DNA of 64,000 nt, taken from contig JAILGE010000030.1 of the NCBI GenBank assembly GCA_024697065.1, positions 1 to 64,000 on the forward strand, read 5' to 3'. Numbering within the stretch: position 1 is the stretch's first letter; each line of letters begins with the position of its first letter. A model generated the notes under the pieces. It was given only the letters and a program-made list of their open reading frames with translations, searched no databases and was not told the origin of the DNA. This document shows, piece after piece, positions 17,118 through 36,342 of the stretch. The DNA comes from Lachnospiraceae bacterium (lineage in GTDB: Bacteria > Bacillota > Clostridia > Lachnospirales > Lachnospiraceae). The position numbers and the translations under genes are program-made.

Positions 17118-19325
17118 TTGAACATTACTAAGATCATAGCTGAAGAATTAAAAGTAAGAGAAGCCCAGGTAGAAGCTGCGGTAAAGCTTATAGATGAAGG
17201 GAATACCATTCCGTTTATTTCAAGATACCGTAAGGAAATGACGGGATCTCTCAATGATGAACAGTTAAGAAATCTGGATGAGAGATTAAAATACCTAAGA
17301 TCATTGGAAGAGAGAAAGTCAGAGATTATAAAATCCATTGATGAACAGGGAAAACTTACGGATGAGCTTAAAAGTAAGATAGAGGCAGCTGAGAAGCTGG
17401 TTACTCTGGAGGATATCTACAGACCCTACAAGGTAAAGAAGGCAACCAGAGCATCTGCAGCAAAGGCCCGTGGCCTGGAGCCTCTTGCAATGTATATATT
17501 AAAGCAGGATGCCACATCTCCTCTTGAGGAAGAAGCTGTCAAATATGTGACAGGAGAGATAAAGCCTGAGTCTGACAGCAAGGCTGACAAGCTTAAGGCT
17601 GCAGCAAAAGAAGTTAAAGATGAAGCAGCAGCTCTTGCCGGAGCTTCCGATATCATCGCGGAGATGATCTCCGATAATGCTGACTACAGGACATATATCA
17701 GAAAGGTGACAGGGGAAGAAGGAAGCGTAACTTCTAAGGCCAAGGATAAAGATACCCGCTCCGTATACGAGAACTATTATGAATACGAAGAGCAGATAAA
17801 AAAGGTGGCAGGACACCGTGTACTTGCTCTTAACCGTGGTGAGAGTGAGAAGATACTTACGGTATCCGTAAAAGCGCCTACTGAAAACATACTCTCTTAC
17901 TTAGAACGTAAGGTCATTACATCGGATAATAAATATACGTCACCCTTTCTTAAGGAAACGGTGGCTGACAGCTATGATCGTCTGATAGCTCCTTCAATAG
18001 AAAGAGAGATAAGATCGGAACTTACCGAGAAGGCAGAGGACGGAGCAATTGATGTCTTTGGAAAGAACTTAAAGCAGCTTCTCATGCAGCCTCCCATTGC
18101 CGGCCAGACTGTACTGGGCTGGGATCCCGCTTTCCGTACGGGATGCAAGCTTGCAGTAGTAGATCCTACGGGCAAGGTGTTGGATACTGTTGTGATCTAC
18201 CCTACGGAACCTCAGAAGAAGATAGAAGAATCCAAGAAGACGGTAAAATCTCTTATTAAAAAATACGGTATAACACTTATCTCTGTCGGCAATGGAACAG
18301 CATCAAGAGAATCGGAACAGGTAATAGTCGAGATGCTTAAGGAGATCCCTGAGGCAGGTGTAAAATACGTCATCACCAATGAAGCCGGAGCATCCGTTTA
18401 TTCCGCAAGCAAGCTTGCAACGGAAGAATTTCCCGAATTTGATGTGGGACAGAGAAGCGCCACATCCATTGCAAGACGAGTGCAAGACCCTCTCTCGGAG
18501 CTTGTTAAGATCGATCCAAAGTCCATTGGTGTTGGGCAGTATCAGCATGACATGAATCAGAAAAAGCTGTCCGAGAAGTTAAGCGGTGTTGTAGAAGACT
18601 CTGTTAATGATGTGGGAGTTGACGCAAATACAGCTTCTGCTGCGCTTTTACAGTATATTTCCGGTATCAGTTCCGTCATAGCCAAAAATATAGTTGATTA
18701 CAGAGAAAAGAACGGAAAGTTCACAAGCAGAAAAGAATTCTTAAAGGTTCCAAAGCTTGGGCCCAAAGCGTATGAACAGTGTGCCGGATTCATGAGGATC
18801 AATGACGGTAAGGAGCCCCTCGACGGAACCAGCGTACACCCGGAATCTTACGATGCGGCGGGAAAGCTTTTATCTGTTATCGGATGCGGAATAAAAGACA
18901 GTGCTGCCATTAAGGAATATGACGCAAAACTTAAGGACAGAAAGGCGGTTGCTGAGTCCATAGGAGTTGGTGTTCCCACTCTTGATGATATCCTCAAAGC
19001 TCTTGAGAAGCCCGGCAGAGATCCGAGAGAAGATATGCCCAAACCGATACTGAGATCGGATGTACTTGATATGAAGGATCTGAAGCCCGGCATGGTACTT
19101 AAGGGAACCGTAAGAAATGTTATCGACTTCGGTGCCTTTGTAGACATAGGTGTACATCAGGATGGACTGGTACATATCTCACAGATGTGTGACAGATATA
19201 TCAAGCACCCCTTAGAAGCGGTGTCGGTTGGAGATATAGTAAATGTCGAGATACTCAGCGTGGATACGGAACGTAAGAAGATATCTCTTTCCATGAAAAC
19301 CGAGAATGCAAAGGCGGCCAGATGA
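17118..19325 (+). CDS. tex: Tex-type RNA-binding transcription accessory protein
   Basis: 735 residues from a TTG start preceded by AGGGGG about 9 nt upstream. Family order is intact: helical Tex N-terminal region (IPFISRYRKEMTG, LEDIYRPYK), YqgF-like RNase H fold (LGWDPAFRTGCKLAVVD), two HhH elements (VGVDANTAS, KNGKFTSRKEFLKVP) and a C-terminal S1 domain (GMVLKGTVRNVIDFGAFVDIG). Tex proteins bind nucleic acid and influence transcription and virulence-gene expression. An in-frame GTG-like opening further upstream (17046) overlaps the ABC-F gene and has no ribosome site. The next gene overlaps by 4 nt (ATGA). Confidence 0.95.
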   Translation: MNITKIIAEELKVREAQVEAAVKLIDEGNTIPFISRYRKEMTGSLNDEQLRNLDERLKYLRSLEERKSEIIKSIDEQGKLTDELKSKIEAAEKLVTLEDIYRPYKVKKATRASAAKARGLEPLAMYILKQDATSPLEEEAVKYVTGEIKPESDSKADKLKAAAKEVKDEAAALAGASDIIAEMISDNADYRTYIRKVTGEEGSVTSKAKDKDTRSVYENYYEYEEQIKKVAGHRVLALNRGESEKILTVSVKAPTENILSYLERKVITSDNKYTSPFLKETVADSYDRLIAPSIEREIRSELTEKAEDGAIDVFGKNLKQLLMQPPIAGQTVLGWDPAFRTGCKLAVVDPTGKVLDTVVIYPTEPQKKIEESKKTVKSLIKKYGITLISVGNGTASRESEQVIVEMLKEIPEAGVKYVITNEAGASVYSASKLATEEFPEFDVGQRSATSIARRVQDPLSELVKIDPKSIGVGQYQHDMNQKKLSEKLSGVVEDSVNDVGVDANTASAALLQYISGISSVIAKNIVDYREKNGKFTSRKEFLKVPKLGPKAYEQCAGFMRINDGKEPLDGTSVHPESYDAAGKLLSVIGCGIKDSAAIKEYDAKLKDRKAVAESIGVGVPTLDDILKALEKPGRDPREDMPKPILRSDVLDMKDLKPGMVLKGTVRNVIDFGAFVDIGVHQDGLVHISQMCDRYIKHPLEAVSVGDIVNVEILSVDTERKKISLSMKTENAKAAR

Positions 19326-21745
19326 TGACGATTATTTTTTTGATATGTTCTGTTTTATGTCTTTTATATGCGGTATTGGTCTGGAGTGTTCATTCAGGAA
19401 CATCTTTTTTCCTGATATGGGTGGCTGCTGCTGCACTCTTTCTTATACTCGCTGCCGTAAAAAAATATCACATATGGAAAAAGCTGAACAAACCGGTTAA
19501 GGCAATCGTCATTTCTCTGTTCTCGTTAGGAGTATTGTTCATGCTGGTTACACAGTGTATGATCTTTTCCGCTTTTTCTTCAAAGGGAGAACCGGGTTTG
19601 GATTATCTGATAGTACTGGGATCCCAGGTTAAGGAAAGCGGTCCGTCTGCGGTAACGGTATGGAGACTTAAGGCTGCCATCGATTATCTCGAAGCTAATC
19701 CCGAAACAAAGGTGATCGTATCAGGTGGTCAGGGACCAAATGAACCTGCGCCGGAAGCCGTTATAATGAAGCAGTATCTCATTGAGAACGGAATTGATAA
19801 GGAGAGGATACTTACTGAAGAGAAATCCAAAAATACTTCTGAAAATATCAGTATGTCCGCAGAGTTGATAGATATCGAAAATGCCAGTGTCGGTATTGTA
19901 ACGAATAATTTTCATGTATTCAGAGGTGTTGCACTGGCAAGAACCTACGGTTACGCAAATGTCTGCGGCATTGCAGGTGGTTCTTCATTAAGCTTCCTTC
20001 CGAACAACCTTCTGAGAGAGAGTTGCGGACTGGCGAAGGACTTCGTGATGGGAAATATTTCTTTTTCAGGTGGGAAAGGGAAAACGGCATCGGTAAGTAA
20101 TGAAAATACGGTAAAAACAACGGCTCCCGTGAATTCGCATCCCAGCGGATTCTACGAGGAGCCGTTTGAGTTTGTGATTGATGTTAAGGAAGGCAGCAGG
20201 ATCTATTACACTCTTGACGGAAGTATTCCGGATAAAGAAGACAATTTATATTCCGGACCAATAAGCATTACGGATATTTCTTCTGAGGAGAATAAATTGT
20301 CCGCGAGAACAGATATTACTGCACCTTCCATGTGGGGTAATGTCGTAGCTCCCGGTGGACCTGTAGATAAAGCAACAGTAGTCAGATATGTTGAAGAAGA
20401 TTCAAATGGTGAACTGAGTGAAGTACAAAACTTTACTTATTTTGTGGGATATCAGGATAAGGATGATTATTACAGGAATGTAAAAGTGATCTCACTGGTG
20501 ACGGATCCGGACAATTTATTTGATCCTGAAAAGGGTATATATGTTACGGGCAGGAAATATGAAGATTGGACAGAAAGTGATGAATATGATCCCGGATTGG
20601 ATCAATGGCTTGTTCCTGCAAATTATCTGGAAAGAGGAAGGGCGTGGGAGCGGCCGGTCTATATGGAGGTATTTGAAAACGGGGTATCCGTATCCTGCGG
20701 AAATGCCGGTATGCGCATACATGGTGGATCCTCCAGGGCTGCCGAACAGAAGAGTTTTAATATTTACATGAGAAGCGAGTATGGACCTTCAAAATACAAA
20801 CAGGATCTTTTTTCCGGAAATAACATTTCCGAATTTGACGGTTCGGTCATCGATGAATACGACACCTTTGTTCTGAGGGACGGAGGAAATGATCTGAAGT
20901 TCTCAAGGCTTAGAGATAAACTTATCCAGGGGCTTGTGAGAGACAGATCATTTGCGACGCAGGCAATGGAACCCTGCATTGTATTTATAAACGGTGAATT
21001 CTGGGGACAGTATGAGATCACAGAAAGGTTATCGGATGATTATATAGAGTCACACTTTGGTGTGGATGAAAAGAACGTCATACTAATTAAGAACGGTGAG
21101 TTGGAAGCCGGTGAAGAAGGAGATGAAGAAGAATATTCTGAGCTTGTCAAATGGATAAAAGAAACGGATTTCAAGGATCAGGCCAATTATGAGGAGCTTG
21201 AAAGAAAGGTGGATCTCAGGGAGTTCGCCGAATATATGTGTGTACAGTTTTATATATATAATTACGATCTGGCCGATCAGAATCTGGCTATGTGGAGAGC
21301 TTCGACACCTGATCCGGAGAATCCCTATGCGGATGGAAAGTGGAGATTCATCCTTTTTGATACTGAATACAGTTCGGGACTGTACGGAGAGGCGGTGGTC
21401 TCAGGTAATGCATTTAAAGAGCTGGAGAAGAAAGACTGTTTGCCTCGATATCTTTTCTTTAATGCGATGGAAAATGAAAATTTCAGGGATTTATTTACAG
21501 ATGCATACAAAGACATAACTGAAAATGATTTTGAAAAGGAAAGAGTGGATTCGGAAATTGTTGCACTGGATGAAGAATATCATGAAATGGTGCTTGATAC
21601 GTATGACAGATTCTGGCCATTCTGGCCGGGAGGTTCCAACAGAGAAAACAATCTTGCCGAACAGATATGGGGATTGAGAGCATTTTTCGGAAGCAGGAAG
21701 TTTTACATGGACCAAGATCTTGAAGAACTGCTGGAAAGGTACTGA
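19322..21745 (+). CDS. Membrane protein: DUF218 (YdcF-like) fused to CotH-kinase-like domain
   Basis: 807 residues. Three hydrophobic helices (about 1-20, 26-46, 59-84) precede a DUF218 domain (about 96-250; DYLIVLGSQV, VIVSGGQGP, NTSENISMS), the family of YdcF and SanA implicated in envelope functions. Next comes a chitobiase C-terminal-like beta segment (IYYTLDGSIPDKED, about 295-315) and a CotH-type domain (about 355-720: MRIHGGSSR, FVLRDGGND, INGEFWGQYEITER, FILFDTEYSSG). CotH proteins are atypical protein kinases in spore coats. It overlaps tex by 4 nt. The fusion is membrane-anchored with the catalytic domains probably outside; ATP availability there makes kinase activity questionable. 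Confidence 0.85.
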   Translation: MMTIIFLICSVLCLLYAVLVWSVHSGTSFFLIWVAAAALFLILAAVKKYHIWKKLNKPVKAIVISLFSLGVLFMLVTQCMIFSAFSSKGEPGLDYLIVLGSQVKESGPSAVTVWRLKAAIDYLEANPETKVIVSGGQGPNEPAPEAVIMKQYLIENGIDKERILTEEKSKNTSENISMSAELIDIENASVGIVTNNFHVFRGVALARTYGYANVCGIAGGSSLSFLPNNLLRESCGLAKDFVMGNISFSGGKGKTASVSNENTVKTTAPVNSHPSGFYEEPFEFVIDVKEGSRIYYTLDGSIPDKEDNLYSGPISITDISSEENKLSARTDITAPSMWGNVVAPGGPVDKATVVRYVEEDSNGELSEVQNFTYFVGYQDKDDYYRNVKVISLVTDPDNLFDPEKGIYVTGRKYEDWTESDEYDPGLDQWLVPANYLERGRAWERPVYMEVFENGVSVSCGNAGMRIHGGSSRAAEQKSFNIYMRSEYGPSKYKQDLFSGNNISEFDGSVIDEYDTFVLRDGGNDLKFSRLRDKLIQGLVRDRSFATQAMEPCIVFINGEFWGQYEITERLSDDYIESHFGVDEKNVILIKNGELEAGEEGDEEEYSELVKWIKETDFKDQANYEELERKVDLREFAEYMCVQFYIYNYDLADQNLAMWRASTPDPENPYADGKWRFILFDTEYSSGLYGEAVVSGNAFKELEKKDCLPRYLFFNAMENENFRDLFTDAYKDITENDFEKERVDSEIVALDEEYHEMVLDTYDRFWPFWPGGSNRENNLAEQIWGLRAFFGSRKFYMDQDLEELLERY

Positions 21746-21902: not shown

Positions 21903-22952
21903 ATGATCATAAGTTCCGGTACGGTAAGTATGGGGGCCAAGCGGAGCTTTGCCCGGGAATCAAAGTCAGGACAATTGTTTGTTATAAAGGGGGCAGACAG
22001 TAAATTTGAAGGAACATCCATGCGCTTTGGAAATGTAGCCGAACGGATGAGGGATGGTTCCTCTCTGGCAAGAGATATGCTGCGTCATGATTTTAAAATG
22101 TCAGTGGAAAAACGTGTTGCAGAACATGATGAAGAAAAAGCTCTTGAGGAGATCAGAAGAAAGAGTCTCAGATATATCCTTGAGCATTTCTACAGACTGT
22201 TTTTTGGAAGAGGATATGAAGCGAAGAACAAAGGGGTGCAGGACAACACAGAAGTATCAACGGAAAGCAATAACATGCTCGCATCTTACAGTGAATATGC
22301 TTCCTATGAGGAATCCGAACAGACAGATTTCATGACAACGGGGACAGTGATCACTGCCGATGGCAGAGAGATATGCTTTGGATTGAGTCTTGCAATGAGC
22401 AGGAGTTTTAAAGAAGAATACCTCAAGAAGACGGAGGTATACGCTCAAAATGCATCGAATGCCATAGATCCGCTGGTGATCAATTTAAGCGGAAATATAG
22501 CTTCTGTGTCGGATCAGAAGGTGATGTTCGATCTGGATGCGGACGGAGAACCGGACAGCATATCACGATTAAATCCTGACAGCGGTTATCTTGCATTGGA
22601 TATTAACGGTGACGGAAAGATCAATGATGGACGTGAACTTTTCGGAACCGAGTCCGGTGACGGATTTGCCGATCTTGCAAAATATGATGAAGATGGAAAC
22701 GGGTGGATAGATGAAGCCGACCCGATCTTTGCAAAGCTTAAGATATTTGTGACGGATGAGGAAGGTCATGAGACACTTTACCGTCTTAAAGACAAAGGTG
22801 TCGGTGCCATATGTCTTCAGAAAGTTGATACGGATTTTTCTCTTAATTCTCTTCAGGATAATAAAAGGAATGCACAGATAAGGGAGTCCGGAGTCTTTCT
22901 GTATGAAAACGGAATGGCAGGTACTGTCCAGCACATAGATCTTATGAGATGA
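21903..22952 (+). CDS. EF-hand-like calcium-binding protein without signal peptide
   Basis: 349 residues preceded by a very strong ribosome site (AAAGGAGG). The N-terminal half is charged and helical with no membrane segment. The C-terminal part (about 205-290) carries EF-hand/dockerin-like loops: LDLDADGEPD-type, ALDINGDGKINDG, KYDEDGNGWIDEAD, the layout FDLDxDG...LDINGDG...LFGTxxGDGFADL that also occurs next to RTX-type calcium repeats. No signal peptide is visible, so it is cytoplasmic or exported by a non-Sec route. I know this layout from hypothetical proteins in Lachnospiraceae; function unknown. Confidence 0.7.
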   Translation: MIISSGTVSMGAKRSFARESKSGQLFVIKGADSKFEGTSMRFGNVAERMRDGSSLARDMLRHDFKMSVEKRVAEHDEEKALEEIRRKSLRYILEHFYRLFFGRGYEAKNKGVQDNTEVSTESNNMLASYSEYASYEESEQTDFMTTGTVITADGREICFGLSLAMSRSFKEEYLKKTEVYAQNASNAIDPLVINLSGNIASVSDQKVMFDLDADGEPDSISRLNPDSGYLALDINGDGKINDGRELFGTESGDGFADLAKYDEDGNGWIDEADPIFAKLKIFVTDEEGHETLYRLKDKGVGAICLQKVDTDFSLNSLQDNKRNAQIRESGVFLYENGMAGTVQHIDLMR

Positions 22953-23161: not shown

Positions 23162-25423
23162 ATGTCCCATTCTATAGATTTTTTAAAGGATGAAGTCAGA
23201 AACGGATTTTATATAACTACCCCTATCAAACAGGCGTGGGCTGAAACACTGGACGTTCTTGCTGAGATAGACAGGATCTGCAGGAAGTATGACATCCGGT
23301 ATTTTGCTGACTGGGGGACTTTTTTGGGTGCCGTAAGGCACGGTGGATTTGTCCCCTGGGATGATGATCTGGATATCTGCATGCTCCGTGATGATTATGT
23401 AAGATTCAGGCAGGTGGCAGACAGTGAACTTCCGGAACAATTTATGATCCATGATTATGCGAGCAAGGAGGGGCACTGGCTTTTTCTTTCCCGTGTAGTT
23501 AATAACCATACCATGTGTTTTGATGAAAGTTATCTTGATAAACACAATAATTTTCCATGGCTTACCGGTGTTGATATCTTTATCAAAGATTATCTGTATG
23601 ATGATGATTGCGATGAGATAGAAAGAGATAAAGAGATACTGAATATTCTTGCAGTGGCAGACGGAGTCATAGACGGAAGTCTCAGCAGACAGGCTGTCTG
23701 TTCTGAGATTGAAAAACTACAGGAAAAGTATTCATACGATCTGTCAAAAGAAAGCAACGATCATGAACTTGCTGTTGCTTTGTACAGGCTGGCTGAGACG
23801 CAGATGTCCAGAGTGTTGCCAAAAGACAGTAAAAGGGTGGGACAGATCTTCCCATGGGTCATAAAACGAAGACCTGGTTGTGAAGAAAATAAAGAGATAT
23901 ATGATAATATCATTTATCTTCCTTTTGAAGATACAAAGATACCGGTCCCTGCTGCTTACAACAGATCGCTGCTGTCAAGATACGGGAATACCTACTGCGA
24001 GATCAAAAAGGTATGGGGCGGACATGACTATCCATTCTTTGAAGGACAGAAAGCGGAGATGGAAAGACTCCTGGATAACAGATTGCCGGGATTTTATTTC
24101 GAAAGATCTATGCTTACACGTCTCGGAACGGATAAGAGCGCTTCTTATAAAGAGACTGCAAAAGACTGTTTCAGGGAGCTGGAAGTGATGCTTTCGGATG
24201 CTATGAAGTCTTTGGCTGACAGAAACTATGAGGATTTCATGGCTCTGATTTCCGATAGTCAGCAGTTGGCAGCCGATCTTGGAACTCTCATAGAAAAGAC
24301 CAGAGGAGAAGATGATCCTGTCACTTTGCGGATAACAACGGTTTTACAAGGTTATTGCGATGCACTGTGGGAAGATTATCAGGCGATTTCAAATGGTGAA
24401 GATAAAGAGGGACTCACATTAAGCAGATCTGCTTTTGAGAGATTATGCGAATGTATCAAAACAGATCTGTTAAACAGAAAAGAAATATTGTTCCTGACTA
24501 CCGGAGCAAAAGAATGGAAGGGCTTTGAGATATATCACAGAAACCTGTCCGATATGGATACTGACATATATGTTGTTTACACCCCGCTTATGAAGCGGAG
24601 TTTTACCGGTAAGGTGGTGACTCCGGATGAAGACCGGTGCCCTGATCATCTTCCTGATGATGTCCGCGTTATCGACCACAGGTTTTACGATATTTCGATA
24701 CATTGTCCGGATGTGATATATGTCCAATATCCGTACGATAGTTATAATCCATGTCTGACTATCCCGCAGGAATTCTTTGTCAGAAATCTTCAAAGATACT
24801 CAGAAAAGATAATATTTATCCCTCCGTACAAAATAGGAGAATTCGACTGCAATGACAGAAATGATATATATAATCTGAGACATTATGCAGTATCTCCTGC
24901 CGTCATATATGCAGATAAAGTAATACTTCAGTCTGAAAATATCAAAGAGAGGTATGTGGAAGTATTATGTGATGCTGCGGGAGAAGATACAAAAGAAATA
25001 TGGGTTGAAAAAATCCATGTTGAAGATACAGTGCGTGATCAGGACAGGGATTGTGAGAAAAAGAAATTACTCATATGCGTTGGTGAAAATGAGGTTGCGG
25101 AACATAAGGAAAGATTTCCCGAGTCTCTGAAACGCAAGATGGATCATATTATAATGAGACATGACAAAGTGCAGCTTTTTATTTCACTGTATCCGGGTGA
25201 TAAAAACGAATGGCTTAAGGCTGATAAAACAGTATCGGAAAGGGTTTTTGAAGAACTTGAAAAGATGTCTTCAGAGTATGGATATGAGTGGGTGGATTTT
25301 AATGCGTCGAATGCTGATGAGATCGCTGAAAGGTTTGATGCTTATTACGGAAGTCCATCACCGTTAGTTCCGGCTTTTAATACAAAGGGAAAGCCGGTGA
25401 TGCTGGCAGACTACGGTAAATGA
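23162..25423 (+). CDS. LicD-family phosphotransferase with C-terminal CDP-glycerol-transferase-like region
   Basis: 753 residues. Residues about 27-290 are a LicD domain: FADWGTFLGAVRHGGFVPWDDDLDI contains the G-T-L-G-x-x-R and DDDLD metal/nucleotide-binding signature of phosphocholine and polyol-phosphate transferases. Residues about 430-620 resemble the N-terminal half of CDP-glycerol glycerophosphotransferases found in Lachnospiraceae wall-polymer loci (PDVIYVQYPYD, EKIIFIPPYKIGE, ADKVILQSENIKERY). No signal peptide or helices; it should act at the inner face of the membrane on a lipid-linked or wall polysaccharide. Downstream genes can produce an activated pentitol phosphate, which suggests CDP-ribitol as donor rather than CDP-choline (inference). 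Confidence 0.85.
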   Translation: MSHSIDFLKDEVRNGFYITTPIKQAWAETLDVLAEIDRICRKYDIRYFADWGTFLGAVRHGGFVPWDDDLDICMLRDDYVRFRQVADSELPEQFMIHDYASKEGHWLFLSRVVNNHTMCFDESYLDKHNNFPWLTGVDIFIKDYLYDDDCDEIERDKEILNILAVADGVIDGSLSRQAVCSEIEKLQEKYSYDLSKESNDHELAVALYRLAETQMSRVLPKDSKRVGQIFPWVIKRRPGCEENKEIYDNIIYLPFEDTKIPVPAAYNRSLLSRYGNTYCEIKKVWGGHDYPFFEGQKAEMERLLDNRLPGFYFERSMLTRLGTDKSASYKETAKDCFRELEVMLSDAMKSLADRNYEDFMALISDSQQLAADLGTLIEKTRGEDDPVTLRITTVLQGYCDALWEDYQAISNGEDKEGLTLSRSAFERLCECIKTDLLNRKEILFLTTGAKEWKGFEIYHRNLSDMDTDIYVVYTPLMKRSFTGKVVTPDEDRCPDHLPDDVRVIDHRFYDISIHCPDVIYVQYPYDSYNPCLTIPQEFFVRNLQRYSEKIIFIPPYKIGEFDCNDRNDIYNLRHYAVSPAVIYADKVILQSENIKERYVEVLCDAAGEDTKEIWVEKIHVEDTVRDQDRDCEKKKLLICVGENEVAEHKERFPESLKRKMDHIIMRHDKVQLFISLYPGDKNEWLKADKTVSERVFEELEKMSSEYGYEWVDFNASNADEIAERFDAYYGSPSPLVPAFNTKGKPVMLADYGK

Positions 25424-25467
25424 GGAGAGGGTAGTGCAAAAGGTGTTGATACACGGAGGGGGAAAAT

Positions 25468-26130
25468 ATGAGTTTTGAATTGATGGCATCTATGATGTGT
25501 GCGGATTTCGGACATTTGGAGAGAGAAGTCAGAGACCTGGAAGAAGCGGGTATAGATTCGTTCCATATAGATATAATGGATGGGAGATATGTTCAGAATT
25601 TCGCAATGTCACTGAATGATATGAAATGCATCCGTGCACTGACGGATAGGCCTATGGATGTACACCTTATGGTTGAGCATCCGATCAATACTATAGAGCT
25701 CTTTATACGCAATCTTCGAAAAGGGGACACGATATATATACATCCGGAAGCGGAATATCATCCCTCAACAACCATTCAAAGGATAATGGATGCAGGTATT
25801 ACTCCGGGTATAGCTATCAATCCCGGAACCAGTGTGGAACAGGTAAAGATGCTCTTACGTATTGTAAAAAAAGTGCTGGTGATGTCGGTTAATCCGGGAA
25901 ATGCAGCTCAGATCTTTCTTCCTTATGTCAGGGAAAAATACGATGAGCTGTTGGTCATGAAGGAAGAAATGGATTTTGATATCTATTGGGACGGTGCCTG
26001 CGGTGCAGACAAGATAAAGGAGTTCGCACCTCTGGGTGTAAAAGGATTTGTGCTTGGCACGACGCTGCTGTTCGGCAAGAACAAGCCATACGCCGAAACA
26101 CTTGTTTCGGTAAGAAATCTGTTAAACTGA
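25468..26130 (+). CDS. Ribulose-phosphate 3-epimerase family protein
   Basis: 220 residues, a TIM barrel of the Rpe family: MASMMCADFGHLEREV, FHIDIMDG (metal-binding His and Asp), DVHLMVEHP, GIAINPGT, MSVNPGNA and WDGACGADKI. The canonical ending strand VDGG...VAGSS is diverged here (WDGA...VLGTT), so this is probably a specialised paralogue rather than the housekeeping Rpe. In this operon it would convert D-xylulose 5-phosphate to D-ribulose 5-phosphate (or a related pentulose/hexulose phosphate), feeding the TarJ-like reductase. Ribosome site GGAGGGGG upstream. Confidence 0.85.
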   Translation: MSFELMASMMCADFGHLEREVRDLEEAGIDSFHIDIMDGRYVQNFAMSLNDMKCIRALTDRPMDVHLMVEHPINTIELFIRNLRKGDTIYIHPEAEYHPSTTIQRIMDAGITPGIAINPGTSVEQVKMLLRIVKKVLVMSVNPGNAAQIFLPYVREKYDELLVMKEEMDFDIYWDGACGADKIKEFAPLGVKGFVLGTTLLFGKNKPYAETLVSVRNLLN

Positions 26131-26177
26131 TCCCGGGATCTGGTGATAAAGGATTATGACCGAAGGAGGATCCTGAA

Positions 26178-26882
26178 ATGAATCATGCGATATTATTATC
26201 CGGCGGCAGAGGTACACGGGCAGGATCGGATATCCCAAAACAATATATCGAAGTTCGGGGACGGATGATGATCACATATTCCCTGAAGACACTGCTTGAA
26301 TGCGAGCGGATAGATGCGATCTATATTGTGGCTGAGGAGGCCTGGAGAGAACGTATTTCGGAAGAGGCAGAAGCTACAGCCGTTTGCGGAAACAAGATCA
26401 AGGCTTTTGTAACACCGGGCCCAACCAGACAGATGTCAATCTTTAACGGCATTAAAGAGATCATTAAAGACTTCGGAGATATACCGGAAACAGATACCGT
26501 ACTTATCCATGATGCCGCAAGACCTTTCCTTACTTTGAGATTATTGAAGGCTTGCTATGAGGCATTGCCCGGACATGAAGGAGTCATGCCGGTACTCAGG
26601 ATGAAAGATACGGTTTATAAAAGTCAGGATGGGAGAACTGTATCTGCGTTACTTAAGCGTGAAGAGATATTTGCGGGACAGGCTCCGGAATTGTTTTTAC
26701 TGAAACCGTATCTCAGGGCAAATGAGGAACTGATGCCGGAAAAGATCCTTTCGGTCAACGGAGCGAGTGAACCTGCTGTAATGGCAGGAATGGATATAGC
26801 CATGATACCGGGAGATGAAGGTAATTTTAAAGTAACTACAGACGCGGATCTGTCGCGGTTTAAAGAGATCACGGAGGCGTGA
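26178..26882 (+). CDS. tarI: TarI/IspD-type cytidylyltransferase
   Basis: 234 residues: nucleotide-binding GGRGTRAGSDIPKQY, IHDAARPFL and the C-terminal TTDADLSRF are the marks of the IspD/TarI family, which couples CTP to a phosphorylated C5 polyol. Adjacent to a medium-chain polyol dehydrogenase, as in tarIJ operons of ribitol teichoic acid, so CDP-ribitol synthesis from ribitol 5-phosphate is the best assignment; IspD (methylerythritol) would not normally sit in this context. Ribosome site AAGGAGGAT 8 nt upstream. Confidence 0.8.
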   Translation: MNHAILLSGGRGTRAGSDIPKQYIEVRGRMMITYSLKTLLECERIDAIYIVAEEAWRERISEEAEATAVCGNKIKAFVTPGPTRQMSIFNGIKEIIKDFGDIPETDTVLIHDAARPFLTLRLLKACYEALPGHEGVMPVLRMKDTVYKSQDGRTVSALLKREEIFAGQAPELFLLKPYLRANEELMPEKILSVNGASEPAVMAGMDIAMIPGDEGNFKVTTDADLSRFKEITEA

Positions 26883-26884
26883 TG

Positions 26885-27919
26885 ATGGCAAAGGCGTGGG
26901 TATTACACGAAGCAGGTAACATATCGCTTGATGAAGTTATTATTCCGGACCCCCTTCAAAACGAAGTAAGAATAAGGGTAATGGCCGCGGGAATATGCGG
27001 CTCGGACATACCGAGGATTTACAAAACCGGAGCACACAAAATGCCGCTGATCCCCGGACATGAGTTTTCAGGAGTGGTGGACAGTGTCGGAGAAGGTGTC
27101 GATCCCTTACATAGAGGGAAGCGAGTCGGGGTATATCCCCTTATACCCTGCGGAGAATGCGGACCTTGCAGGGAGGGGAGCTTTGAGCTTTGCAGACACT
27201 ATGATTATGTGGGATCCCGCAGGGACGGAGCTTTTGCGGAATATGTTACTGTTCCTGTAAACAATCTGATCGAACTGCCGGATGAGGTTTCTTTTGAAGA
27301 AGCGGCTATGCTTGAACCCATGGCTGTTGCCGTGAATGCTGTAAAGAAAGGTACTGACAGGTTTAGTGTCGGCAGGGAAAAGAAGATCACGATAATCGGA
27401 ATGGGGACTATAGGTTTATTTGTCGCCATGTTCCTTAAAGAAGCCGGATATAATAATATATATGTAACAGGTAATAAAGAAGGACAGCAAAAAAGGGCTG
27501 AAAGTCTGGGAATAGATCATTTTACGTTCCAAACCGAAGATATAAGTGAGGCTTACGGATCGGCGGTTGTATTTGAATGTGTCGGCAAATCCGAAACAAT
27601 AGTGCGTTCGATCGAAATGGCAGGGCCTTTCGGCAGGGTAACACTTGTGGGTAATCCCTATGGAGATGTTTTATTTAAAAGAGATCAGTACTGGAAGATA
27701 CTTCGTGATCAGTTAACCGTATCAGGAGTATGGAATTCACGTTTTAACGGTCGGGATGATGACGACTGGCATTATGTTCTGGACAGATTAAAGAAAAAGA
27801 GGATCGATCCCCGGAGATTCATCACGCATCGTTTACCGTTGGATATGCTGGAAAACGGGTTTCTTGTAATGAGAGACAAAAAAGAAGATTATTGTAAAGT
27901 AATGATGGCTGAGGGGTGA
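26885..27919 (+). CDS. tarJ: TarJ-like zinc alcohol dehydrogenase (ribulose 5-phosphate reductase type)
   Basis: 344 residues, medium-chain dehydrogenase: catalytic zinc site GICGSD and GHEFSG, structural zinc cysteines in CGECGPCREGSFELC, and a Rossmann glycine motif GMGTIGLF. Next to the cytidylyltransferase it most plausibly reduces D-ribulose 5-phosphate to D-ribitol 5-phosphate; a polyol phosphate dehydrogenase such as galactitol-1-phosphate dehydrogenase is the alternative by similarity. Start at the third of three consecutive start-like codons (GTG 26879, ATG 26882, ATG 26885), which has the best spacing (7 nt) to GGAGG inside the end of tarI. Confidence 0.8.
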   Translation: MAKAWVLHEAGNISLDEVIIPDPLQNEVRIRVMAAGICGSDIPRIYKTGAHKMPLIPGHEFSGVVDSVGEGVDPLHRGKRVGVYPLIPCGECGPCREGSFELCRHYDYVGSRRDGAFAEYVTVPVNNLIELPDEVSFEEAAMLEPMAVAVNAVKKGTDRFSVGREKKITIIGMGTIGLFVAMFLKEAGYNNIYVTGNKEGQQKRAESLGIDHFTFQTEDISEAYGSAVVFECVGKSETIVRSIEMAGPFGRVTLVGNPYGDVLFKRDQYWKILRDQLTVSGVWNSRFNGRDDDDWHYVLDRLKKKRIDPRRFITHRLPLDMLENGFLVMRDKKEDYCKVMMAEG

Positions 27920-31427: not shown

Positions 31428-31856
31428 ATGACGATAACAGCAATCCTCTTATCAGTGGCAGCTGTTGTAACTGATGTGAGGACAGATAAGATCCCAAATG
31501 TTTTAACTGTGATCGGAATAATAACCGGTGCGCTGTTCAGGATCATCCTGAGCGGACCGGGTGAAGCAGGGGCCATCATAGTGGATGTTGCGGCAGCTTT
31601 CGCGGTGACTTTCATTTTGTTCCTGATCAAAGCGCTTCGCGGAGGAGACGGTAAATTATTGTGTGCTTTAAGTGCAATGCTGGGTTTTCCGGCAACTGTG
31701 ATGATCCTTGTTTTTTCTCTTTTGCTGGCAGCCGTCGTCGGGTGCGTAAAGATGATCTTCACCAAGAGGAAGCTCTTTTCAAAAACTTTTATTCATTTCA
31801 GTATCCCTATGGCATGTTCGGTGATGGTTTATGCTACGGGATTGATAACAAGATAA
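31428..31856 (+). CDS. Prepilin peptidase, CpaA/TadV type (first copy)
   Basis: 142 residues, all membrane. A24 aspartic prepilin peptidase: first catalytic Asp in TDVRTDKIPN and the second in RGGDGKLL (GxGD). It cleaves the leader of the Flp pilin and TadE-like pseudopilins encoded downstream. First gene of the Tad locus; AGGAG upstream. The 288-nt gap before it (31140-31427) contains only weak promoter-like sequence and a short open frame of no known identity. Confidence 0.85.
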   Translation: MTITAILLSVAAVVTDVRTDKIPNVLTVIGIITGALFRIILSGPGEAGAIIVDVAAAFAVTFILFLIKALRGGDGKLLCALSAMLGFPATVMILVFSLLLAAVVGCVKMIFTKRKLFSKTFIHFSIPMACSVMVYATGLITR

Positions 31857-31874
31857 ACAATACGGAGGGTGATT

Positions 31875-32888
31875 ATGAAGAGAAGATCGATCGCGTTATG
31901 TGATGATGATGAAAAATATATCGTTAAGCTTCAGGAGAGTCTGGAGCAAAAAGAAAATTTTCCGTTTTCAGTAAATACATATACGGGAGTGGACAGGCTT
32001 AAAGAAAGTCTTACGGATACGGATTATGAATTGATCCTTGCGGAAGAAAAAGCATTTGATGAACTGAAAAAAGATTTGATGAAAGACAAGGATAAACACT
32101 CTCTGATACTTCTGAAAGAAAGAGGGAGCATAAATGATTCGAATGATTTTATCTGGAAATATCAGTCAGCCGAAAAGATCAGAAAGGATATCCTGAAGAT
32201 CTGCGCGGAAAAAGGTGATCCGGACGTGATATTCGGATCTGCGGAAGGCAGGACAAGGATGATAGGGATTTTTTCTCCCGTTGGGAGAGATATACAGACG
32301 TCCTTTTCGTTACTGTTGGGACAGTTCCTTGCAAAGAAGAAGAAGGTCCTGTACCTGAATCTGGAGCCTTTTTCGGGATTATCAAATATGCCGGGGTACG
32401 ATCCTGAAAGTGATCTTACAGATCTCATCTATTATCTTGAAAGTGGTAAAGAAAAGATACGATGTAAGCTGGAAAGCATGGTTGGAAACATCGGAGGTCT
32501 TGATTATGTATCTCCTGCATTTTCATTTTTGGATCTTAGTCAGATCTCTGAATCCAATTGGCTGCTTTTGCTCCAAACCATTATAAACACGGGAAAATAT
32601 GATTACCTGATAGTGGATCTTTCGGAAATGATAAAAGGGCTGTTAAGTATTTTACGGGAGTGTGATGTTGTTTATACCATAACAGGAAGAGAAGGGCTTG
32701 CACCTGCCAGGATGAAGCAATACGAAGAATTGCTGAGACAACAGGAAGGAAATGACATCCTCGAACATACAAGAAAGGTTGAAATGCCGACATTCAGCAT
32801 GCTTCCGTCAGACCTGATGGAACTGCCATATTCGGAACTGGCGGGATATGTTGGAGAGATAGCGGAAGCAGAACTGGAGTGCAGGTAG
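31875..32888 (+). CDS. tadZ: TadZ/CpaE-like pilus localisation protein
   Basis: 337 residues. An N-terminal receiver-like half (about 1-115, without a complete acidic pocket) is followed by a MinD/ParA-like ATPase fold (about 125-300) with IFSPVGRDIQTS at the place of the deviant Walker A and YLIVDLSE as Walker B. CpaE/TadZ proteins position the Tad apparatus. The P-loop lacks the usual KGGxGKT, so ATP hydrolysis may be lost. ATG 31875 follows GGAGG by 6 nt. Confidence 0.8.
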   Translation: MKRRSIALCDDDEKYIVKLQESLEQKENFPFSVNTYTGVDRLKESLTDTDYELILAEEKAFDELKKDLMKDKDKHSLILLKERGSINDSNDFIWKYQSAEKIRKDILKICAEKGDPDVIFGSAEGRTRMIGIFSPVGRDIQTSFSLLLGQFLAKKKKVLYLNLEPFSGLSNMPGYDPESDLTDLIYYLESGKEKIRCKLESMVGNIGGLDYVSPAFSFLDLSQISESNWLLLLQTIINTGKYDYLIVDLSEMIKGLLSILRECDVVYTITGREGLAPARMKQYEELLRQQEGNDILEHTRKVEMPTFSMLPSDLMELPYSELAGYVGEIAEAELECR

Positions 32889-32895
32889 TATCGTG

Positions 32896-34113
32896 ATGAC
32901 CGAGGAAGAAGTTAGAAAAAAACTAAAGGACGAGATAAATTCGCAGATCAGCATGGATCGTGAACTGTCTGATGAAGAGGTGCGGGAGATCATCGACAGA
33001 ACAGTTATCGGTAACGGCAGGAGAATGGGATTATCTCTTGAAATGAAACAGAGATTATCGAGAGATCTGTTTTACTCTATCAGACGTCTTGACGTGCTGC
33101 AGCAGCTTACCGATGATCCGGAAGTTACGGAGATCATGATAAACGGGTATGACACGATTTTTATTGAAAGAGCGGGACATCTGTACAAATGGGATAAGAA
33201 GTTTGAGTCACCGGAAAAACTAAGTGATGTTATCCAGCAGATAGTTGCCAGGTGTAACCGCACGGTAAATGAAGCTTCACCCATTGTTGATGCAAGACTT
33301 GAAAACGGATCCAGGGTAAATATTGTTCTCAATCCTGTGGCTTTGAACGGTCCCATAGTAACTATCCGACGTTTTCCGGAGAAACCGTTTCTGATGGAGG
33401 ATCTGATGAGATTCGGAGCGATCAATGAAGAAGCGGTTTCTTTTCTAAAGAATCTGGTTATAGCCGGATATAACATCTTTATCAGCGGAGGTACCGGAAG
33501 TGGAAAGACCACTTTTCTGAATGCATTATCGGATTTCATCCCAAAAGATGAAAGGATAATTACCATCGAAGACAGTGCCGAATTGCAGATAGTGGGAGTC
33601 GACAATCTGGTGAGGCTTGAGACGAGGAATGCAAACGTGGAAGGATGCAGCGAGATAACCATAAGAGATCTGATCCGGTCCAGTCTCAGAATGAGACCTG
33701 ATCGGATCATAGTAGGAGAAGTGAGAGGAGCTGAAGCCATAGATATGGTCCAGGCCCTTAATACAGGACACGATGGAAGTCTCAGTACGGGACACAGCAA
33801 CAGTGCTTCCGATATGCTGTCGCGTCTGGAGACCATGATAATGATGGGAATGGATCTTCCGATATCTGCCATCAGAGGACAGATCGCAAGCGGGATAGAC
33901 ATAATAGTTCATCTCGGGAGATTACGTGACAAAAGCAGAAAGGTACTGGAGATAGTGGAAATACTGGGTTATGAAGATGATGTCATAAAGACATCGACGT
34001 TGTACAGTTTTAAAGAGGAAGGTGAAGATGAAAAAGGAAAGATCGTCGGAAGGCTTCTTGCAGAGGATCCGCTTAGCCATACTGAAAAGCTCAGGGCGGC
34101 GGGGCTCATGTGA
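32896..34113 (+). CDS. tadA: TadA/CpaF secretion ATPase
   Basis: 405 residues. Type II/IV secretion ATPase: Walker A GGTGSGKTT, Asp box IITIEDSAELQ, Walker B-like IIVGEVRGAEA and His box LNTGHDGSLSTGHSN. It powers Flp pilus assembly. The N-terminal region (LTDDPEVTEIMINGYD) is typical of CpaF. The next gene begins inside its 3' end. Confidence 0.95.
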   Translation: MTEEEVRKKLKDEINSQISMDRELSDEEVREIIDRTVIGNGRRMGLSLEMKQRLSRDLFYSIRRLDVLQQLTDDPEVTEIMINGYDTIFIERAGHLYKWDKKFESPEKLSDVIQQIVARCNRTVNEASPIVDARLENGSRVNIVLNPVALNGPIVTIRRFPEKPFLMEDLMRFGAINEEAVSFLKNLVIAGYNIFISGGTGSGKTTFLNALSDFIPKDERIITIEDSAELQIVGVDNLVRLETRNANVEGCSEITIRDLIRSSLRMRPDRIIVGEVRGAEAIDMVQALNTGHDGSLSTGHSNSASDMLSRLETMIMMGMDLPISAIRGQIASGIDIIVHLGRLRDKSRKVLEIVEILGYEDDVIKTSTLYSFKEEGEDEKGKIVGRLLAEDPLSHTEKLRAAGLM

Positions 34114-34864
34114 GGGAATCGTAAAAGCTGATTATAATGAATATACGCTTACTTTGAACGAGATCATATTGTACGGCGCAGAAGCCATAGCACTTATCAT
34201 TCTGATATCTTATATCTTCTACAGATCATTTCTGGCAGTGTTCCTGCTGTCACCGACAATAATACTGTTCCTTGATCATAAAAGAAAAAGAAGGATCAAA
34301 TCCGAAAAAGAAAAACTCACATTACAGTTTAGAGAAATGATGCATTCGGTAATTGCCGGGCTGCAGGCAGGTTACTCGGTTGAAAATGCATTTGAACACA
34401 GCTACGACGATCTTATTCTTTTGTACGGAAGGGATGAGATCATACCCAAAGAGATAGAAGTGATCAATCGAAATCTCAGGAACAACCACAATCTTGAAGA
34501 GGTCCTGACAGATCTTGCAGAAAGGACACATGTAAAAGATATAGCTGATTTTGCGGAAGTATTCAGGATAGCCAAGAGAAGTGGAGGAGATCTTACGGCT
34601 ATACTCGGAAACACGGCAGAAGCCATAAGCGACAGGATTGAGGTCAGAAGAGAGATTGCTGTTGGCATCAGCGACAAGAAGATGGAACAGAAGATAATGG
34701 ACTTGGTGCCATTTGGGATCATTTTTTATATCGATGCAACTTCACCGGGTTTTTTTGAACCGCTGTACCACAATCCGGGAGGAGTAGCACTTATGACAGT
34801 TATGCTGGGCGTGTATATATTTGCGTTCCTTCTGGGAGAGAAGATTCTTGATATCAGATATTGA
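34028..34864 (+). CDS. tadB: TadB-like platform protein
   Basis: 278 residues. Two helices near the N-terminus (about 50-85), a T2SSF-type cytoplasmic domain (about 100-225; LQAGYSVENAF, FAEVFRIAKRSGGDL) and C-terminal helices. With TadC it forms the inner-membrane platform. The ATG at 34028 has AGGAAGG upstream and gives an 86-bp overlap with tadA in another frame; no better internal start is visible. Confidence 0.85.
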   Translation: MKKERSSEGFLQRIRLAILKSSGRRGSCEGIVKADYNEYTLTLNEIILYGAEAIALIILISYIFYRSFLAVFLLSPTIILFLDHKRKRRIKSEKEKLTLQFREMMHSVIAGLQAGYSVENAFEHSYDDLILLYGRDEIIPKEIEVINRNLRNNHNLEEVLTDLAERTHVKDIADFAEVFRIAKRSGGDLTAILGNTAEAISDRIEVRREIAVGISDKKMEQKIMDLVPFGIIFYIDATSPGFFEPLYHNPGGVALMTVMLGVYIFAFLLGEKILDIRY

Positions 34865-34887
34865 TAATGAAAAATATGAGGTGAGGA

Positions 34888-36342
34888 ATGAAGATTATCC
34901 TTTTATTATTATTGGCGGCTTTGATCGCGTTTGTTGTGATAACACGAAATGAAGAGCTTCCGGCCGAATGTACTTCTTCGAAGATCCTGATCCCTTTCTT
35001 TCGGACGGGTATGTGGATCACAGGAAAGATATCAGCATCGGAGCGATTTAAGAATCTTCTGATACAAAAGAATTCGGAGAAGATATATCTGTTGCGTCCC
35101 GGTAAGGATGTGACCAGGGAAGGATACATCCATTGTGTAAAAAAATGCGGATTCCTGCTTTTAGCTTTGATAGTAGGAATGGTTATGGTTTTGATCCTGT
35201 CAGTTAAAGGAACAGGAGAGACCTACCTGCAGGAGGGAGATATACTTAACCGTCGCGAATTTGGAGAGGGTGATTATGAGGCGAAGTTATGCGTGACGGT
35301 CGGAGATGAGACTTTTCAAAATGAAGAGATAAGGGTATTAAAGAGAGACTATTCCGATGCGGAAATACAGGAGATGATGCCTGAATTTAAAGAAAAGCTC
35401 GAGCTGGCATTCCTGGGAAATAACGAGTCACTATCCCGGATCAATGAAGATCTGAATCCGATAGGAGAGATAAAGGGCTATCCGTTTAAGGTTGAGTGGA
35501 GCTTTGACAGGAATGTTATAGATTTCAAAGGCCATCTTAATGAGGGAATTCCTCAAAAGGGAGTCATTACTTCAGCTGAAGCCACAATCACCTATCTGGA
35601 TCATATAGAGTTATATGAATTTCCATTGAAGGTATATCCGAAGAATTACTCTCATCGTGATGAGATGCATATGAAGATGTTAAGTGCTCTGGAAAAAGCT
35701 GATGAAGGAAGCAGCACCCAAAAAGAGTATCGTCTTCCCAATACGGCTGACGGGATAGAAGTTGTATGGAAGGAAGAGAAGAAGGATGCTACTGCAGTAT
35801 TCTTTATCATTGCTATTGCTGTTTCTGCTGTGATCTTCTGGGCGCCGGATAATGATCTGAACAGAAAGGTAAAGGCGAGGGATGAACAGCTCCTGTCCGA
35901 TTATCCTGAAGTAGTCAATAAGATAGCCCTCTATGTCGGCGCCGGAATGACTATAAGAAACGCATGGAAGAAAATGACTGATGAATATCAATCTGTAAGA
36001 AAAGCCGGTGCGGATATGAGATATGTTTACGAAGAGATGCTGTTGGCAGTTTATGAGATGGAAAGCGGAAGCGGAGAACTGGCAGCATACAGGAATTTTG
36101 CAAAGCGCTGCAGGCTGCAAAAGTATATTAAGCTGGTATCGCTTTTAGAGCAGAATATAAAACTGGGAGCAAAGGGATTTCTTGATGCCATAAGGCATGA
36201 AGCCATGGATGCGCTGGAAGAGCAGAAGGCCACAGCAAGGAAAAAAGGAGAAGAAGCGGGAACTAAACTGCTTGTTCCCATGATACTAATGCTTTTGATA
36301 GTTATGGTGGTGATAATAGTTCCTGCGTTTGTGACCCTATAG
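34888..36342 (+). CDS. tadC: TadC-like platform protein with large extracytoplasmic insert
   Basis: 484 residues, longer than the usual 290-320. Helix at about 1-20 and another at about 90-110, then about 185 hydrophilic residues (about 112-300) including two strand-rich repeats, a helix at about 304-321, a T2SSF-like domain (about 340-455; YVGAGMTIRNAWKKM) and a final helix. The insert lies between membrane segments and by topology is outside the cell. GAGGTGAGG precedes the ATG. Confidence 0.8.
   Translation: MKIILLLLLAALIAFVVITRNEELPAECTSSKILIPFFRTGMWITGKISASERFKNLLIQKNSEKIYLLRPGKDVTREGYIHCVKKCGFLLLALIVGMVMVLILSVKGTGETYLQEGDILNRREFGEGDYEAKLCVTVGDETFQNEEIRVLKRDYSDAEIQEMMPEFKEKLELAFLGNNESLSRINEDLNPIGEIKGYPFKVEWSFDRNVIDFKGHLNEGIPQKGVITSAEATITYLDHIELYEFPLKVYPKNYSHRDEMHMKMLSALEKADEGSSTQKEYRLPNTADGIEVVWKEEKKDATAVFFIIAIAVSAVIFWAPDNDLNRKVKARDEQLLSDYPEVVNKIALYVGAGMTIRNAWKKMTDEYQSVRKAGADMRYVYEEMLLAVYEMESGSGELAAYRNFAKRCRLQKYIKLVSLLEQNIKLGAKGFLDAIRHEAMDALEEQKATARKKGEEAGTKLLVPMILMLLIVMVVIIVPAFVTL

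Follow-up and report, generated by a model that had tools for sequence, protein, structure and literature searches.

A LicD–helical bundle–GT-B fusion protein encoded together with an epimerase, a cytidylyltransferase and a dehydrogenase in Lachnospiraceae: a possible system for alditol phosphate transfer

The DNA stretch analysed in this work (hereafter the window) comprises 64,000 nucleotides, positions 1 to 64,000 of contig JAILGE010000030.1 from a Lachnospiraceae bacterium (assembly GCA_024697065.1), and contains, at positions 23162-27919, a putative operon of four open reading frames (ORFs) on one strand, with intergenic gaps of 44 and 47 bases followed by a final 4-base overlap. The operon encodes a LicD-domain fusion protein, a paralog of ribulose-phosphate 3-epimerase (RPE), an IspD-family cytidylyltransferase that resembles TarI, and a medium-chain dehydrogenase (MDR):

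23162..25423, + strand: LicD–helical bundle–GT-B fusion protein, 753 amino acids (Pfam LicD, 2.6e-31)
25468..26130, + strand: RPE-like epimerase paralog, 220 amino acids (PF00834 Ribul_P_3_epim, 5.5e-48)
26178..26882, + strand: TarI-like/IspD-family cytidylyltransferase, 234 amino acids (PF01128 IspD, 1.3e-31)
26879..27919, + strand: zinc-dependent MDR, 346 amino acids (ADH_N, 1.4e-30; ADH_zinc_N, 2.8e-14), with a 4-base overlap with the end of the TarI-like gene

All four genes lie where an earlier note on this DNA had placed them, as tightly packed, Pfam-confirmed ORFs of the same strand, and they form a conserved unit: the four-gene set is also present in genomes G027 (locus L047) and G030 (locus L062) and at loci L098, L101, L104 and L144, and in G027, the closest relative genome, the order of the surrounding genes, from Tex and the CotH protein through to Ddl, is kept as well. 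The genome to which the window belongs (2.69 Mb in 44 contigs, 99.8% complete) encodes three IspD-family proteins (179 bits on contig C12, 110 bits in the window and 100 bits on contig C39), two RPE proteins (236 bits on contig C20 and 163 bits in the window) and two LicD proteins. Given that copies of IspD and RPE exist elsewhere in the genome, the isoprenoid and pentose-phosphate roles are served by other genes, and the RPE-like, TarI-like and MDR genes of the operon (hereafter the cassette) are a dedicated set. The operon contains no separate TarK/TarL gene; elsewhere in the genome, two genes exceed the PF04464 cut-off, with partial profile coverage.

The fusion protein consists of three modules, as seen in the AlphaFold2 model (pLDDT 91.3, pTM 0.89), and has no transmembrane stretch (maximum 19-residue hydropathy 1.04):

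23279..23986, + strand: LicD domain, residues 40-275, with the nucleotidyltransferase fold of FKRP
23315..23383, + strand: acidic motif GTFLGAVRHGGFVPWDDDLDICM, residues 52-74, putative metal/CDP site, aligned to FKRP residues 295-342
24143..24481, + strand: helical bundle module, residues 328-440, from the structure model and from profile matches on stand-alone proteins
24473..25420, + strand: GT-B domain of the TagF/TarL type, residues 438-753

The LicD domain scores 109.9 bits against PF04991 (cut-off 22.6), and no further Pfam domain, PF04464 included, was detected at E 0.01 in the 753 residues. Residues D67, D68, D69, D71 and D138 are invariant in all 55 rows of the alignment of fusion proteins (A7). 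The structural comparison with FKRP that the earlier note had proposed found the nucleotidyltransferase fold of FKRP in the window domain, which matches FKRP at 1.1e-4. The hG[GS] motif, described for the FKTN/FKRP subfamily in the accessible part of PMC11982090, is not conserved, with W-G-T at residues 51-53 of the window protein versus G-G-S in FKRP; the deviation appears mild, given that position 53 is occupied by threonine in 44 and by serine in 11 of the 55 fusions.

The helical bundle is also found at the N-terminus of stand-alone GT-B relatives, where it was recognized by profile matches. A FliS-like fold score obtained for this module found no support in the sequence. As for the C-terminal 316 residues, described in the earlier note as a region similar to CDP-glycerol transferases, this description is correct at the level of the fold: the copy of the domain in a relative aligns with TagF, with the TarL–CDP-ribitol structure and with the capsule multienzyme 8a0c. 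The claim that no TarK/TarL polymerase gene is present is correct for a separate gene of the operon, but the C-terminus of the LicD protein is itself a GT-B domain of the TagF/TarL type. The TagF and TarL matches of the single-domain model of the relative rank below UDP-GlcNAc 2-epimerases, and TagF/TarL are absent among the 50 matches listed in the full-length fold search of the fusion. Given that the hhalign match between the GT-B module and the canonical PF04464 rows of the fetched loci is weak (E 0.0046, 70 columns, probability 7.6%), the assignment is carried by the fold comparison. In TagF/TarL, two catalytic histidines, one in a WHG motif, are described in the accessible part of PMC11666461. 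In contrast, the window protein has no PF04464 match and lacks both histidines: with positions taken from the sequence alignment, none of the 55 fusions has WHG at the corresponding stretch, and the second position, a tyrosine in the window, is histidine in 7 of the 55 and in none of the 30 domains in the clade of the window. Because the TagF-type histidines are missing in this clade, the GT-B domain is probably non-catalytic.

The three cassette enzymes belong to well-known families and carry distinct signatures, two of which can be localized in the window:

25990..26001, + strand: DGAC in place of the canonical DGGV, residues 175-178 of the RPE-like protein, paralog signature
26679..26690, + strand: QAPE in place of QTPQ, residues 168-171 of the TarI-like protein, cassette cytidylyltransferase signature

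The RPE-like protein shares 30% identity with the genome's canonical RPE, with His33, Asp35, His66 and Asp175, which we take to be the catalytic residues, aligned and kept; DGAC is present in 54 of 55 rows of RPE paralogs, versus DGGV in the canonical RPE of this genome. The protein falls short of the NCBIfam model TIGR01163 (171.5 of 212.6 bits) and scores 143.5 bits with the D-allulose-6-phosphate 3-epimerase model. The nearest solved chains of the cytidylyltransferase are 3f1c, 4jis, 2vsh and 6xhp (135-103 bits; the next chain scores 94.4); 4jis and 6xhp were deposited as ribitol-5-phosphate enzymes, and 3f1c and 2vsh, which we presume to be TarI-type as well, under the methylerythritol name. 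All 45 cassette cytidylyltransferases have PE at the QTPQ site (APE in 40, TPE in 3 and SPE in 2), whereas the canonical IspD of this genome has QTPQ. The dehydrogenase belongs to the zinc MDR family, as TarJ presumably does, and the four-cysteine structural-zinc pattern is present in 36 of 36 MDR rows. Its nearest named NCBIfam model is galactitol-1-phosphate 5-dehydrogenase (219.7 bits, below the cut-off of 550), its best match in PDB is the galactitol-1-phosphate 5-dehydrogenase 4a2c (9.5e-58), and no TarJ-named chain is found among the best 60 of 202 PDB matches. TarIJ pathways are not known to carry an extra epimerase.

The distribution of the cassette was traced through RPE paralogs with at least 69% identity among 299 genomes of the family. 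Such paralogs were detected in 33 genomes, that of the window included; six further genomes have copies at 44-50%, and the remaining ones among the matches listed are at most 40% identical. When 391 genomes were drawn from the whole class, 10 passed E 1e-55, namely seven of the family (again including that of the window), one elsewhere at 61% and two at 47-50%. All 35 non-window loci with at least 69% identity, from 32 genomes, were fetched together with five of the six intermediate loci, and neighbors within 3.5 kb were counted in six frames. Both the TarI-like and the MDR genes were found on the same strand at 20 of the 35 loci, the TarI-like gene alone at 4 and neither at 11, with some of the 35 loci lying near contig ends (one at 62 bases); both genes are also present at two of the five intermediate loci. 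Given the RPE paralogs in 33 of 299 genomes and the co-occurrence of the other two genes at 20 of 35 loci, the grouping of the cassette is not due to chance. The partner proteins are diverse: a LicD+GT-B fusion at 7 loci, a stand-alone helical+GT-B protein at 7, a canonical PF04464 protein at 5, LicD alone at 2 and none at 14, although L119 and L127, scored as lacking a partner, have such proteins beyond 3.5 kb. At L108, L115 and L118, where neither a TarI-like nor an MDR gene lies within 3.5 kb, the RPE paralog adjoins a canonical PF04464 protein, which implies that the epimerase can travel with a transferase only. At locus L142 (10001-14589), two tandem LicD–GT-B fusions are followed by RPE, TarI-like and MDR genes.

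Relatives of the LicD protein were collected from named genomes with a 12-protein alignment as the query; at least 590 stretches matched, 571 were confirmed and the best 80 were kept, of which 73 belong, judging by their titles, to Lachnospiraceae or genera placed there. The query set included cassette-linked LicD proteins, hence the sample is not neutral. The LicD+GT-B fusion is present in 66 of these 80 stretches, with a cassette gene in 27, a flagellin gene in 31, both in 8 and neither in 16 of the fetched stretches; the 14 stretches without the fusion include 3 with a cassette gene, 3 with a flagellin gene and 1 with both. In the tree of 132 LicD domains, a cassette gene lies within 3 kb of 17 of the 30 domains in the clade of the window (support 90, window included) versus 23 of the 102 others (Fisher test, 6e-4, or 1.2e-3 without the window, for a clade that was chosen after inspection of nested clades). 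The cassette label requires 22 changes on this tree; 500 shuffles averaged 34.5, and none got down to 22. At L147, L149, L150, L168 and L173, a TarI-like gene immediately precedes LicD, with no RPE or MDR gene nearby, and it is these pairs whose gene order comes closest to that of ISPD and LicD.

A flagellin gene is located within 6 kb of 49 of the 132 LicD domains, compared to an expectation of about 1.6% of the genome, which was derived from 34 same-genus genomes (mean of 3.6 flagellin genes per 3.1 Mb) and should be read with the reservation that the LicD domains come from beyond that genus as well and that several LicD genes share one locus. At L101, FliD- and FliS-like genes (identified by reading) are followed by the LicD fusion, RPE, TarI-like and MDR genes and two flagellins; at L052, two LicD fusions flank the gene of an MptE-like protein (PF01973, presumably the domain of Maf-type flagellin glycosyltransferases), and a flagellin gene is located past the second fusion. 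A flagellin gene was also found within 6 kb at 5 of the 32 cassette loci whose RPE gene was retained in the initial ORF call. At L116 (2866-8963), genes for a flagellin, a GT2 protein, a stand-alone helical+GT-B protein and an RPE paralog share one strand. Given that the LicD relatives often adjoin flagellin genes, a flagellin glycan is our preferred hypothesis for the acceptor of the relatives, and we suggest it for these alone, without extending it to the window. According to the accessible part of PMC13317340, Butyrivibrio is counted among the Gram-positive genera with flagellar O-glycosylation. No paper joining flagellin with CDP-ribitol, or LicD of Lachnospiraceae with flagella, was found in the open-licence literature, which is a weak negative; flagellin together with LicD and glycosylation led to a single paper, on a Campylobacter genome.

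Considering the observed genes, folds, motifs, gene order and distribution together, we assign a probability of roughly 0.5 to the reading under which the operon's enzymes synthesize a CDP-linked sugar alcohol, whose alditol phosphate the LicD domain then transfers; all substrates, the sequence of the reactions and the acceptor are what we infer. The RPE-like paralog would supply a ketose phosphate, most likely ribulose or xylulose 5-phosphate, the zinc dehydrogenase would reduce this compound to an alditol phosphate (a pentitol 5-phosphate in the most likely case), and the TarI-like enzyme would activate the latter with CTP. The LicD domain, with its acidic active site intact, would then move the alditol phosphate onto a cytoplasmic glycan acceptor; the probable role of the helical bundle and of the GT-B domain is to bind donor or acceptor, not to catalyse. 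A wider proposal is that flagellin glycans of Lachnospiraceae carry a pentitol or hexitol phosphate added by cytoplasmic, FKRP-related LicD–helical–GT-B transferases, which draw on a specialized cassette that includes an epimerase of its own. The GT-B half would be a decayed TarL-type enzyme that now serves for binding, such that one protein combines the two known CDP-alditol transferase folds. This proposal is tentative and, in our assessment, somewhat doubtful.

Several results weigh against transfer of a CDP-alditol by LicD, and are considered here along with the alternatives. A GT-B partner (19 of the 35 cassette loci) is commoner than a LicD partner (9), and 14 loci have neither within 3.5 kb, so the cassette is not tied to LicD. 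On this point above all the first reading has to be corrected, and its view of LicD as the natural acceptor of CDP-ribitol is weakened accordingly. Among the 133 non-window LicD domains, no significant association was detected of the GT-B fusion with the cassette, of flagellin with the cassette or of the GT-B fusion with flagellin, and the window operon is located outside any flagellin island, on contig C27, with the flagellins of the same genome on C10, C12 and C42. Furthermore, the other LicD of this genome, which has no cassette beside it, matches FKRP at 1e-4; because it does so equally well, FKRP likeness says nothing about the donor, and this control ruled out similarity to FKRP as specific evidence for CDP-ribitol. 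It could be proposed that the GT-B part is the CDP-alditol transferase, that the cassette evolved with GT-B partners, and that the LicD domain of the fusion adds a different group, such as phosphocholine, to the same acceptor. The 7 stand-alone helical+GT-B and 5 canonical PF04464 proteins that accompany the cassette without LicD fit this alternative, as do the alignment of the relative's domain with TagF, TarL–CDP-ribitol and 8a0c, the scores of two of the six stand-alone relatives above the PF04464 cut-off of 22.1 bits (L113, 35.5; L102, 27.4; the other four are below it) and the RPHP histidine that is kept in 7 of 7 stand-alone rows of alignment A4. However, the loss of WHG throughout the fusions and of the second histidine throughout the clade of the window, and the invariant acidic residues of LicD speak against this alternative, which appears unlikely.

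As for the identity of the alditol, the TarI-like protein scores lower with the ribitol model (NF001183, 128.5 of 166 bits) than with the IspD model (TIGR00453, 155 of 181.3), and misses both cut-offs. Given these missed cut-offs, the higher IspD score, PE in place of PQ, the galactitol-type MDR and the extra epimerase, ribitol is not certain: the operon does have dedicated enzymes that are in principle able to turn a ketose phosphate into a CDP-alditol, as the earlier note held, but its more specific claim of CDP-ribitol as the product is not established. The likeness to TarI points tentatively to CDP-ribitol, which we rate as somewhat less likely than not; the alditol may instead be xylitol, arabinitol or a hexitol. 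In the hexitol case, the RPE-like protein would be a hexulose 6-phosphate 3-epimerase and the dehydrogenase would make a hexitol phosphate (or reduce a CDP-ketose), yielding CDP-hexitol. The galactitol-1-phosphate 5-dehydrogenase matches of the MDR, the D-allulose-6-phosphate 3-epimerases within the RPE family and the DGAC and PE signatures, which are unlike the canonical enzymes of the genome, are compatible with this scheme, and PF01128 enzymes making CDP-hexitols, with reduction after cytidylyl transfer, are reported in the accessible part of PMC10918830; nevertheless, with the RPE model outscoring the allulose model and TarI-named enzymes among the nearest cytidylyltransferases, it appears distinctly unlikely. 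It is very unlikely that LicD uses only CDP-choline made elsewhere in the genome, with its three neighbors serving another pathway, since the operon itself contains no choline kinase or LicC-like gene in the Pfam scan and LicD, RPE, TarI-like and MDR genes recur together in several genomes. Two points speak for CDP-choline: the sole NCBIfam match of the LicD protein is cholinephosphotransferase, below the cut-off (58.3 of 225 bits), and contig C39 carries a locus (L011, 7246-9931) where the third IspD-family gene adjoins an NTP-transferase and a choline-kinase-like gene; that locus is perhaps a CDP-choline or related supply, and no LicD match was found on C39. Finally, the TarI-like protein could be a spare IspD for isoprenoid synthesis, being of the same Pfam family, with its higher IspD score and with two of its four nearest solved chains bearing the methylerythritol name; given the canonical IspD elsewhere (179 versus 110 bits), the missed IspD cut-off and a gene that travels with RPE, MDR and transferases, this is extremely improbable.

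In humans, ISPD synthesizes CDP-ribitol, and fukutin and FKRP transfer ribitol phosphate to alpha-dystroglycan. The window operon likewise has an IspD-family cytidylyltransferase beside a LicD-fold transferase with the FKRP fold and acidic motif; unlike FKRP, the window protein is bacterial, predicted to be soluble and equipped with additional helical and GT-B modules. The parallel drawn in the earlier note is not specific, the match to FKRP being generic, and part of it is already in print: the accessible part of Gerin 2016 (PMC4873967) notes ISPD-LicD fusions in bacteria, and LicD enzymes using CDP-polyols have been published, as far as can be seen from the available part of a 2024 paper (PMC11666461), in which the LicD-family protein Cps7C of Actinobacillus pleuropneumoniae polymerises glycerol phosphate from CDP-glycerol and is compared with FKRP. 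Cps7C shares with the window protein membership in the bacterial LicD family, and has a CDP-polyol donor and homology to FKRP, but combines TPR with LicD, uses CDP-glycerol and acts in capsule priming (PMC11666461, same part), whereas the window protein combines LicD, helical and GT-B modules and has its own supply cassette. The TarI/TarJ supply of wall teichoic acid has in common with the cassette an IspD-family cytidylyltransferase, with TarI-named structures among the nearest, and a zinc MDR; the window adds the RPE paralog, has PE for PQ, misses the TarI-type cut-off and has an MDR closest to galactitol-1-phosphate dehydrogenase. The Lic1 phosphocholine system (LicA–LicD) shares the LicD domain, and differs by the choline kinase and LicC-like genes that the window operon lacks.

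In the neighborhood of the operon, positions 21903-22952, upstream of licD, encode a 349-amino-acid protein with EF-hand-like DxDxDG stretches (by reading) and no Pfam match, which is conserved in L047, and positions 19322-21745 encode a single 807-amino-acid protein that joins DUF218 and CotH-kinase domains. Prepilin peptidase-, CpaE-, CpaF-type ATPase- and TadB/TadC-like genes, recognized by reading at 31428-36342, make up a Tad pilus cluster. Promoter-like and terminator-like sites were no more numerous than in shuffled sequences, Rfam gave no match at gathering scores, and the search against phage families returned just a generic alcohol dehydrogenase and a weak match of function unknown.

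The proximity of LicD domains to flagellin genes is a new observation of this work, and the system is a variant of known CDP-alditol systems; its interest lies in the family more than in this one locus. If the reading proposed here is correct, a phospho-alditol modification, perhaps of flagellin, would be at hand for which we found no prior description in the open-licence literature, in bacteria with named relatives sampled mostly from rumen and gut. FKRP is a human muscular-dystrophy protein, and the operon would provide a soluble bacterial model for the joint study of an FKRP-fold transferase and its CDP-alditol supply. Given that FKRP-type and TarL-type folds are joined in one protein, the question of which of them performs CDP-alditol transfer becomes testable by point mutants.

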